Positions 40,489 to 43,556 of a stretch of DNA of 64,000 bases are shown in pieces. Location: contig JAUICP010000001.1 in assembly GCA_030427805.1 (NCBI GenBank), forward strand, positions 62,001 to 126,000, given 5' to 3'. A program made the position numbers and the translations under genes. Numbering within the stretch: the first letter of the stretch is position 1; each line of letters starts with the position of its first letter. The notes beneath the pieces are model-generated. The model made no database searches. It had not been told where the DNA came from and saw only the letters and a program-made list of their open reading frames with translations. This stretch comes from Bdellovibrionia bacterium (lineage in GTDB: Bacteria; Bdellovibrionota; Bdellovibrionia; Bdellovibrionales; JAGQZY01).

Positions 40489-41610
40489 TTAGATACGCAT
40501 GGGCATAATCACACAAGTATAAGTGCTATCATTGTGTGGTTGAATCATTCCTGGAGAAAGTTGTCCATCAAGTTTGAAATCAACACCTTCATCATCGAAA
40601 CTATTCAAAATATCTAGAATGTAGCGAGCATTAAAACCAATCTTGAGTTCCTCACCTTCGTAACCGCATTCAATTTCTTCTTTTGCATCACCAAGTTCTG
40701 GATTGTTCGAAGTGATTTCAAGACGGCCATCTGTAAAAGTGAGAGTGACACCTTTTGATTTTTGGTTCGACAAAAGAGATACTCTTTTTAAACAAGAAAG
40801 TAGAGTTTCACGGTTAATCAAAACTTGGCGTGATAAACTTGCTGGAATTAATTTTTGGTAATTTGGATACTTACCTTCGATAAGGCGAACCATTAAAATG
40901 GCTTTATCTTTTTTAACGATCAGCTGAGATCCTTCGATGGCCATTTCAATTTCACCACCAACATGATCAATCAACTTGCGAATTTCTTGCAAACCTTTTC
41001 GTGGAATAATCACTCCAACTTCAGGTAAGCTTTCACCAGACTTTTCATCGACCATGCGATCAACGAGACTCAGCCTATGACCATCTGTCGCTACCATTCT
41101 GTAAAACTGCTTTTGGTTTTCAGAATGTTTCTCGAAGTAAACTCCGTTTAAGTGGTAGCGAGTTTCATCATTCGAAACACTGAAGATGGTTTTTTCGATC
41201 ATGTCGATCAATGTTTCTGATTCAACTTTTAAAAAGCTATCGGTATTAAAACTTGGAAAAACTGGGTACTCTTCTGAACTGATACCAACGATGTTAAAAA
41301 CTGCTTTTCCCTGTTTAATCTCTAGCCAGTTATTTTCTTTCTTTGTGAGCTGAATAATTCCTTCTGGTAATTCTTTTACAATATCAAATAAATTTTTTGC
41401 ACTAACTGCAACCTTACCCTCATCAAGCACTTTAGTCGGAACTTCATCGGTAAGACTCACTTCAAGATCTGTTGCGAAAACTTTTAAGTGTTGGTCCCCC
41501 GCCTCTAAAAGAACGTTAACAAGAATAGGCATTGTATTTCTTTTTTCAACAATATTTTGCGTTCGAGACAATAATGAAACGAGTTCTTTTTTTTCAATTT
41601 CGAGTTTCAT
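40489..41610 (-). CDS. dnaN: DNA polymerase III beta sliding clamp
   Basis: The ring-shaped clamp that holds the replicative polymerase on DNA. The 373-residue length and three-domain layout are normal. The opening MKLEIEKKELVSLLSRTQNI, the middle YRMVATDGHRLSLVDR and the C-terminus YTCVIMPMRI (the conserved PMR-L-type end) are diagnostic. It lies 225 bp from dnaA across the proposed origin unwinding region and is contiguous with recF. The gene start is close to an AT-rich tract that may serve both as promoter and as unwinding element. Confidence 0.98.
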   Translation of the reverse strand: MKLEIEKKELVSLLSRTQNIVEKRNTMPILVNVLLEAGDQHLKVFATDLEVSLTDEVPTKVLDEGKVAVSAKNLFDIVKELPEGIIQLTKKENNWLEIKQGKAVFNIVGISSEEYPVFPSFNTDSFLKVESETLIDMIEKTIFSVSNDETRYHLNGVYFEKHSENQKQFYRMVATDGHRLSLVDRMVDEKSGESLPEVGVIIPRKGLQEIRKLIDHVGGEIEMAIEGSQLIVKKDKAILMVRLIEGKYPNYQKLIPASLSRQVLINRETLLSCLKRVSLLSNQKSKGVTLTFTDGRLEITSNNPELGDAKEEIECGYEGEELKIGFNARYILDILNSFDDEGVDFKLDGQLSPGMIQPHNDSTYTCVIMPMRI

Positions 41611-41633
41611 ACGAATTTCTCTTTCTATAACTA

Positions 41634-41827
41634 ATAACTATATATATTTAAATATTTAGTAGTTGTAGTAGGGCCGTTAATAAACGCTTTTACCCTCTAA
41701 ACACTTAAAATTATTTCACATTCTCTGTGGATAAACTTTTAGCTTCACGAGCCGTTTTAACCACCGATATTGTGGAAAAGCAAGACCCACAATTATTTCA
41801 ACAGGGCTATCACAATATTTATCCCCA
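41634..41827. other. oriC: Probable oriC unwinding region (AT-rich tract, TAG trinucleotides, DnaA boxes)
   Basis: This gap between dnaN and dnaA has the parts of a bacterial origin in order. An AT-only tract (about 41634-41656) is followed by TAG-TAG-TTG-TAG-TAG (41657-41671), which fits the DnaA-trio pattern. Then come a short GC patch (GGGCCG) and DnaA boxes: TTATCCACA on the minus strand at 41726-41734, TTTTCCACA on the minus strand at 41771-41779, and a one-mismatch TTATCCCCA at 41819-41827. The trio orientation relative to the boxes matches that described for Bacillus. The spacing from the trio to the first perfect box, about 54 bp, is longer than in Bacillus, so a weaker box may lie between. 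Confidence 0.6.
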
Positions 41828-41835
41828 TCCACAAT

Positions 41836-43260
41836 CTACAGCCCTGTGATGTTGTGGATTCTGTTCTCTAAATCATCAATATCTTTCGATAAATCGGAAT
41901 TTTCTTGCAGTTGTTTTTCGATCCGACGTATTGCACTAAGAACCGTAGTATGATCCCTTCCTCCGAAGTAACGCCCAATTTCAACAAGACTTTTTTCTAA
42001 ATGTTTTTTGATCAGATACATAGCTGCTTGGCGTGCAGTTACGAGGGGCTTTGATCGGTTCTTCGATTTGAGATCTACAACCCGAACCTTAAAGTGTTCG
42101 GCTGTCATTTTCTGAATTTCATCGACCGTTAGGGTGGAGGTTTCTCCGTGACTAGCCAAAACTTTTTTGGCCAAGGCTAGGCTGACTCCAAGGCCTTGCA
42201 GCTCTGAAAACATTTTAACCTTATTAAGGTTCCCCTCAAGTTCACGAATTGAGCGTTTGGATATCCTGGCTATATAATTGACCACATCATCGGAGATCTG
42301 CATATTCTTGCGTTCGGCCTTGTAGCGAAGGATAGCCACGCGGGTCTCCATGTCGGGCATTTGGATATCCGCGATGAGTCCCCACTCCAGTCGAGTGCGT
42401 ATCCTATCCTCTAAACCCTTGATATCTTTAGGTATTCTATCACTAGCCACAATAACCTGCTGACCTTTTTCAAAAAAATCATTGAGGGTGTGGAAGAATT
42501 CTTCTTGGACCGCCTCACCACGACCCAAAACTTGGATATCATCCATTAATAGGATCTCGCAGCGATCGCGATACCTTGTTCTGAACTTTTCCATTTCTTG
42601 GCGACGAATGCTCGAAATACATTCATTGAGAAAACGTTCCGCTGAAACATAACAAATTCGTAGGGAAGGGTTGGCTTCGCGAATGAAATTCCCGACTGCA
42701 TTTATTAAGTGGGTTTTACCCATACCAGTAGGACCACATATAAATAGAGGATTGTAACCTTCGGCCCCCGGATTTTGTGCAATTGAATAACAAGCGGCAT
42801 GGGCAAACTCATTGTTACGACCCACAACAAAAGTTGAAAAAGTATAATCTTTATTGAGGACATCCCTTCGTGAGATGGGATTTTGACTCATTAATTGGGG
42901 TTCTTTTGGGGGACTCAGCTTTGTCTCATTTTGAGACACTGGTTGGCTCATTACCTTGTGAAGCTCCCCAGGACCCGTTGAATAGGACTGGAGGCTGTCA
43001 TCTACGATCAGTTCAATATCAAAAGGTTTACTGTAAATAGCTGATATTTCAGAGCAAATTCGATCGAGAATGTTTTCGTGGATCCAATATCGATGGAGAT
43101 CGGAGGGGACCCCTAATTGAAAACGAGTTGAGAAATCCTTTTGATCTACATTCATGAGTTGGGTCGGGTAGAACCAGGTTTCCAAAAGCTTGTTATTAGA
43201 GTTTTTAGCCATCAAATTTGACTTAACAATACCCCAAAATTCACTTCCTGGATTATCCAC
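41836..43260 (-). CDS. dnaA: Chromosomal replication initiator DnaA
   Basis: An AAA+ initiator that binds DnaA boxes and opens oriC. Walker A is GPTGMGKTHL, Walker B is LLMDDIQVL, and the domain IV helix-turn-helix signature is YFGGRDHTTVLSAIRRIEKQ. Domain I is at residues 1-85 and the linker (KVMSQPVSQNETKLSPPKEP) is short. The protein has 474 residues. The GTG start has GGAGGT 6 nt upstream and overlaps a perfect DnaA box (43253-43261), so autoregulation is likely. It is transcribed leftward, away from rpmH. Confidence 0.98.
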   Translation of the reverse strand: MDNPGSEFWGIVKSNLMAKNSNNKLLETWFYPTQLMNVDQKDFSTRFQLGVPSDLHRYWIHENILDRICSEISAIYSKPFDIELIVDDSLQSYSTGPGELHKVMSQPVSQNETKLSPPKEPQLMSQNPISRRDVLNKDYTFSTFVVGRNNEFAHAACYSIAQNPGAEGYNPLFICGPTGMGKTHLINAVGNFIREANPSLRICYVSAERFLNECISSIRRQEMEKFRTRYRDRCEILLMDDIQVLGRGEAVQEEFFHTLNDFFEKGQQVIVASDRIPKDIKGLEDRIRTRLEWGLIADIQMPDMETRVAILRYKAERKNMQISDDVVNYIARISKRSIRELEGNLNKVKMFSELQGLGVSLALAKKVLASHGETSTLTVDEIQKMTAEHFKVRVVDLKSKNRSKPLVTARQAAMYLIKKHLEKSLVEIGRYFGGRDHTTVLSAIRRIEKQLQENSDLSKDIDDLENRIHNITGL

Positions 43261-43556
43261 AGGAGTACCTCCCCACCTATATCTTTAGAATCACTACAAG
43301 AATCTTGTTTTCCACAGTCCAAATACGGAGCAAATGAGATATCAACAGTTGCCCGGTTTTTCAACAAACTAGTGATGGAATAGGAAAATTAGCCACCATT
43401 AATGCGGTTCAGTAGGTTTTTTAAAAGTTTAAATTAGGAAATAATCTGATTTTTTTTAGGACTGAATGGACAGGCTTTGGGAGTTCTGCTCGGTTTGGTT
43501 GTTTGAGTTTTCAGATATCACAATTAAAACAATAGTTTGAAGTATTCTGTGGAAAA
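43253..43556. other. Second DnaA-box cluster in the dnaA-rpmH gap
   Basis: The 457-bp gap between divergent dnaA and rpmH contains no gene that I can support. It holds three DnaA-box matches: TTATCCACA (43253-43261, across the dnaA start), TTTTCCACA (43308-43316) and, on the opposite strand, TTTTCCACA (43548-43556). The region could be the upstream half of a bipartite origin, or a DnaA-dependent control region for dnaA and rpmH. The boxes are spread out rather than tightly spaced. Confidence 0.5.

Follow-up and report, generated by a model that had tools for sequence, protein, structure and literature searches.

The dnaN-dnaA gap in the DNA analysed here (the window, a stretch of 64,000 nucleotides) contains an AT-only tract, a DnaA-trio array, a divergent DnaA box directly at the array (box 1), a perfect DnaA box (box 2) at 51 bp from it and an IHF-like site between the two boxes, and this anatomy is conserved in relatives across the order (Bdellovibrionales). 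The gap is read as the unwinding half of oriC, in which box 2 would be bridged to box 1 and the array by a bend at the IHF-like site, and the probability of this reading as a whole is put at about 0.6.

Gene order and position of the origin

The gap (41611-41835 of the 64-kb window) is flanked by two minus-strand genes. Gene names were assigned from homology and gene order: the minus strand carries gyrA-gyrB-recF-dnaN-dnaA, and yidD-yidC-jag-mnmE are encoded on the plus strand. The features of the gap and its flanks were as follows.

40489..41610, minus strand: dnaN (gene call; tblastn against relatives)
41639..41658, no strand: AT-only tract of 20 bp, the candidate unwinding element (from the sequence; shares two bases with the start of the array)
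41657..41671, plus strand: DnaA-trio array TAG TAG TTG TAG TAG (3'-GAT-5' when read toward the AT-only tract)
41672..41674, no strand: G/C patch GGC between the array and box 1 (begins with G in 92% of weighted relatives)
41675..41683, minus strand: box 1, a divergent DnaA box, CGTTAATAA in forward letters and TTATTAACG on the minus strand (3 mismatches; directly at the array)
41698..41710, no strand: conserved IHF-like site TAAACACTTAAAA (differs at 2 of 9 positions from the consensus YAANNNNTTGATW)
41726..41734, minus strand: box 2, a perfect DnaA box TGTGGATAA, which reads TTATCCACA toward the array (51 bp from box 1, start to start)
41771..41779, minus strand: box 3, TTTTCCACA (96 bp from box 1)
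41819..41827, plus strand: oppositely oriented box TTATCCCCA (1 mismatch)
41836..43260, minus strand: dnaA, 474 aa (gene call; DnaA aligned to 8BTG)
41853..41861, minus strand: weak box GAATCCACA within the 3' end of dnaA (like boxes 7/8 of B. bacteriovorus, PMC5124646)

The cumulative GC-skew minimum, as measured within the window, adjoins the gap: with 2-kb windows the minimum ended at 42000, and at base level it was at 42659, on a floor that is flat from 42.0 to 43.5 kb. This is the place, and the sign change, expected of a chromosome origin, and the DnaA box cluster, the AT-rich element, the skew minimum and the dnaA-dnaN context by which a bacterial oriC is recognized were all found together here. 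In B. bacteriovorus, DnaA binds the corresponding gap in vivo and unwinding of this gap was shown in vitro; the in vivo start of replication was mapped to it as well (PMC5124646). As judged from sequence, the gap is very probably oriC with a working trio array.

A second small group of DnaA boxes was observed upstream of dnaA (43253-43261, 43308-43316 and 43548-43556), of which one is perfect and lies at the start codon and two have one mismatch; no trio array was noticed near them. This group probably serves dnaA autoregulation or is a second part of the origin.

Trio array and AT-only tract

The initial annotation had described, from dnaN toward dnaA, an AT-only tract, TAG-TAG-TTG-TAG-TAG, a GC patch and DnaA boxes facing the array, and this order is exact in the sequence, with the single interrupting TTG at the middle triplet of 41657-41671 and GGCCG as the letters directly after the array. 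Four of the five triplets are TAG and boxes 1 and 2 both face the array, the direction expected of trios. The 15-mer pattern TAGTAGNNGTAGTAG occurred once in the window, against 0.01 occurrences expected from shuffles, and once in the 4.5-Mb genome, where the reversed control pattern likewise occurred once, so that uniqueness on its own is modest evidence.

For the comparison with relatives, their dnaA-dnaN gaps were set in one register by an ungapped profile. The array was present in 70 of 70 distinct gaps of the first set and was recognized in 112 distinct gaps of the order in the enlarged set, from which the low-scoring gaps L242-L248 of a few reduced genomes had been left out; in these genomes of the order (g130, g137 and g138) arrays were degenerate or none was clear. 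The shared layout consists of five triplets, a G-rich patch and a DnaA-box-like 9-mer immediately after it. Counted from the box, TAG was found at the five triplets in 110, 97, 88, 92 and 81 of the 112 gaps, respectively, and the nine positions from -26 to -18 were A/T-only in 71 of 75 divergent relatives. Lack of conservation of the triplets had been named at the outset as a result that would speak against an unwinding region; array, AT tract, G patch and spacing were instead kept across the order. Coincidence within an AT-rich gap, to which the shortness of the pattern and the single genomic occurrence of the reversed control might point, is extremely improbable because the same kind of array, in the same register and with the same flanks, stands in the 112 distinct gaps, and a chance array was rejected on this order-wide conservation. 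On the strength of its conservation, the array is taken to be real and functional.

Outside the order, families f13, f14, f24 and f25 have a like array with tandem boxes, as in Bacillus, and in families f12 and f16-f19 an array after dnaA was often not found; the origins of the latter may lie elsewhere in the genome. In the loci L148-L151, L164-L169 and L181 (families f16 and f17, same phylum), mostly no recognizable array was observed after dnaA.

DnaA boxes and their spacing

Between the array and the perfect box at 41726-41734, 54 bases were counted, in agreement with the distance of about 54 bp given before. For this distance two explanations had been offered, namely relaxed spacing or the use of a divergent box. 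The box-like 9-mer CGTTAATAA right after the GC patch had been overlooked. At the aligned position, the relatives have a mean of 2.5-2.6 mismatches to the DnaA box versus 5.4 at control positions (75 divergent gaps), and the 9-mer there is commonly CGTTGATAA or CGTGGAAAA, correctly oriented. Since a box-like 9-mer follows the patch in relatives and the window copy has 3 mismatches, the divergent-box alternative is right, and relaxed spacing without a near box was discarded.

The distance from box 1 to box 2 was 51 bp in 92 of 112 gaps and 50-53 bp in 96 of 112 (at most 2 mismatches), and no recognizable box 2 was found in some members of the order (e.g., L061, L067 and L136). Most of the 75 relatives also have a box with at most 2 mismatches at either 95 bp (21 hits) or 96 bp (28 hits), and in the window itself the distances from box 1 are 51 bp for box 2 and 96 bp for box 3. 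Other boxes of the same direction cluster near 62-63, 74-75, 84-85 and 95-96 bp, at intervals of about one helical turn; for the non-modal boxes, helical phasing at 10.5 bp gave a Rayleigh p of about 1e-7, not corrected for relatedness.

The second tandem box had at least 3 mismatches in 108 of the 112 members of the order, and no strong tandem box is present in the window; it is kept in L023, L058, L059 and L064 and in outgroups such as L147, L156 and L160. The outgroup families keep both the tandem box and box 2, which in several of f13, f14, f24 and f25 lies at 51-52 bp. Box 2 was lost in 5 of 9 relatives with a tandem near box versus 12 of 66 without it (p = 0.024, not corrected for phylogeny), which is a weak hint that, inside the order, box 2 took over the anchoring from the tandem box. 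No correlation was found between the strength of box 1 and that of box 2 or of the IHF-like site.

Comparison with the Bacillus basal unwinding system

The likeness to the basal unwinding system (BUS) of Bacillus, proposed at first from the order of the elements, held for arrangement and direction: B. subtilis has a box, a G-rich patch, TAG trios and an AT tract in the same order and direction (PMC6669920, PMC8287927, PMC10721633), and its DnaA contact residues are conserved in the window protein. It did not hold for the tandem strong box (box #6 of B. subtilis), which is missing in the window, or for the published search rule (PMC8287927), which asks for 3 or more NAN triplets in a row, no farther than 16 bp from a DnaA box that has 2 mismatches or fewer. 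In the window the TTG breaks the run after two contiguous NAN triplets, and box 1 has 3 mismatches; further differences are that the strong box is 51 bp away across a conserved element and that the residue corresponding to K222 is Gly. Since the published rules are not satisfied, the arrangement is called a variant. The only hit in the window that passed the rule, TAAAATTAT near box 2, was considered as a second trio array and set aside as a mechanical, unrelated hit.

An ordinary Bacillus-type system, in which DnaA at box 1 alone loads the trios, boxes 2 and 3 add affinity only and the middle element has no bending role, is considered unlikely. It would account for the adjacent and correctly oriented box 1 in nearly all relatives, 34 of 75 relatives pass the published rule and single-box BUS origins exist (PMC8287927). 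Against it stand the failure of the window under the same rule, the strong conservation of the middle element and of the 51-bp spacing, and the strong upstream box that is required in B. subtilis (PMC8287927) and missing in the window.

IHF-like element between boxes 1 and 2

A third conserved element was found between boxes 1 and 2, with A at +28 in 98% of weighted sequences (ungapped columns). It fits the IHF consensus WATCAANNNNTTR (PMC10380432) on the opposite strand. At the fixed offset, 52 of 75 divergent gaps matched this consensus with at most 2 mismatches, versus a mean of 2.1 and a maximum of 7 in 1000 shuffles, and five of them matched it perfectly, including that of L012 from the window's own family. 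The match in the window is weak (2 of 9 positions off) and there are five equally good ones in or near its gap, so that the window's site is identified by the alignment alone. In the host genome, ihfA lies directly after pheT and scores over the cut-off of NCBIfam NF001401, and an IHF-beta-like gene, whose product is probably IHF-beta, is also present; of 140 genomes of the order, 125 had an IHF-alpha scoring over the cut-off.

The alternative that the middle element is the site of another protein (a cell-cycle initiation repressor) or the dnaN promoter is judged quite unlikely. The weak IHF match of the window copy would be compatible with it, as would the replication of Bdellovibrio in only one phase of its life cycle, for which no initiation repressor is known (PMC11318664); the five perfect matches at the same offset in divergent gaps and the near universality of ihfA in the order argue for an IHF site. 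The dnaN promoter was rejected after inspection by eye, in which no consistent -35/-10 promoter-like pair was seen in the sequences. Bridging of box 2 to box 1 and the array by IHF or HU is given a little less than an even chance.

In the proposed course of events, DnaA would occupy the perfect box 2 and bind weakly at the divergent box 1. Starting from box 1, an oligomer of ATP-DnaA would extend along the upper strand with one protomer on each TAG triplet and pull the AT tract apart; the central TTG of the five triplets would be a weak step that is tolerated. In view of the poor box 1 and the lack of a strong tandem box of the Bacillus type, a bend at the IHF-like site probably brings DnaA from box 2, five helical turns off, into contact with box 1 and the array, similar to the action of IHF between R1 and R5M in E. 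coli. The binding of DnaA and IHF, the bending and the unwinding are predictions from the conserved anatomy.

Comparison with the origins of B. bacteriovorus and E. coli

DnaA-trios have already been reported in the oriC of B. bacteriovorus, where strand separation was shown near the place corresponding to them (PMC5124646). This origin resembles the window in its gap, gene order, AT-rich unwinding element, trios, short GC-rich stretch and box 1, and in the weak boxes in the 3' end of dnaA; its array was reported as four trios, versus five triplet positions with a central TTG in the window, whose box 1 is also weaker; the main text of that paper makes no mention of an IHF-like site or a fixed 51-bp geometry (PMC5124646). 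Trios in the Bdellovibrio oriC are thus known, and the layout of box 1, IHF-like site and box 2 was not found in the main texts of open-licence papers.

The IHF site between R1 and R5M of E. coli, GATCAACAACCTG, is itself two positions off the consensus, and its sequence was confirmed in E. coli genomes. R1, IBS1 and R5M were assigned within this region. The geometry is nearly the same as in the window: the distance from R1 across the IHF site to R5M is 55 bp versus 51 bp here, and that from the IHF centre to R5M is 26 bp, as is the corresponding distance here; the IHF motif is on the other strand, so that its orientation is opposite to that in the window. In the left half of E. coli oriC (R1-IBS1-R5M), an IHF site is flanked by two co-oriented boxes at a distance of about five turns, and this unit adjoins the unwinding element, an arrangement which the conserved IHF-like site and the IHF genes would fit here; E. 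coli has TT[A/G]T(T) motifs there, in contrast to the long TAG array in the window (PMC10380432).

Direct trio loading (Bacillus) and IHF-bent single-strand recruitment (E. coli) are models of origin opening that have mostly been investigated in separate organisms. In this lineage both modes appear to be combined within about 80 bp with a fixed geometry, by which their relation becomes testable in one small origin. It is tentatively proposed, jointly with selection on base capture as described below, that Bdellovibrionota origins are hybrids in which Bacillus-type trios are loaded through an E. coli-type IHF bend from a box 51 bp away to the weak adjacent box; the odds of this joint proposal are somewhat below even. 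If true, such an origin would join two competing models of origin opening.

Central bases of the triplets and DnaA contact residues

The central base over the 560 triplets of the 112 gaps was A in 513, C in 35, T in 11 and G in 1, and in the divergent representatives C, T and G were found 30, 10 and 1 times, respectively; central T was mostly at the middle triplet. Since A-to-G is a common transition, the near absence of central G points to selection. A and C, not G, at the central base have been found to support unwinding (PMC10721633); with this result and with the base-capture model of that paper the natural spectrum, not found published in the main texts of open-licence papers, agrees. The natural arrays would be an independent, evolutionary measure of the central bases accepted by DnaA, consistent with the base-capture model from cryo-EM, and within the joint proposal above they would record natural selection on base capture, with C and T tolerated centrally and G almost never.

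By alignment to 8BTG, the window DnaA keeps six of the seven trio-contact positions (N212, I215, I218, R227, E249 and E254, corresponding to N187, I190, I193, R202, E223 and E228 of B. subtilis), the residues of base capture, and the seventh, K222, is Gly; the contact residues are kept in nearly all relatives too. TTG is also at the middle triplet in L038, L130, L137 and L236 and at the second triplet in L012. Given the recurrent non-A centres and the conserved contact residues, the TTG of the window is therefore regarded as a tolerated interruption.

Several minor observations were made on these residues and bases. Residue 248 of the window DnaA corresponds to B. subtilis Lys222, a backbone contact where the strands fork, and 80 of 82 sequences of the order have Gly at this position. 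The array of L066 (Bdellovibrionales; same genome as L239), TAG TTG TCG TCG TTG, is almost without central adenines, and its DnaA has Asn187 intact and Met in place of Ile193. At least two TCG, CCG or ACG triplets, that is, natural central-C trios, were found in L186, L214, L218, L222 and L240, and such arrays occur in several genera within one family. In candidate division WOR-3/Stahlbacteria, the array at the origin box consists of (TTG)n or CTG-TTG repeats with central T (L078, L092, L095, L096, L098, L100, L101, L104, L105, L107 and L250-L268), and DnaA has Thr, Ile or Leu at the position of B. subtilis Asn187, the contact of the central adenine. Sequences with a residue other than Asn had 25 T arrays and no A array, and those with Asn had 21 A arrays and 6 T or mixed ones; this association, which maps to essentially one clade, could reflect a switched trio specificity.
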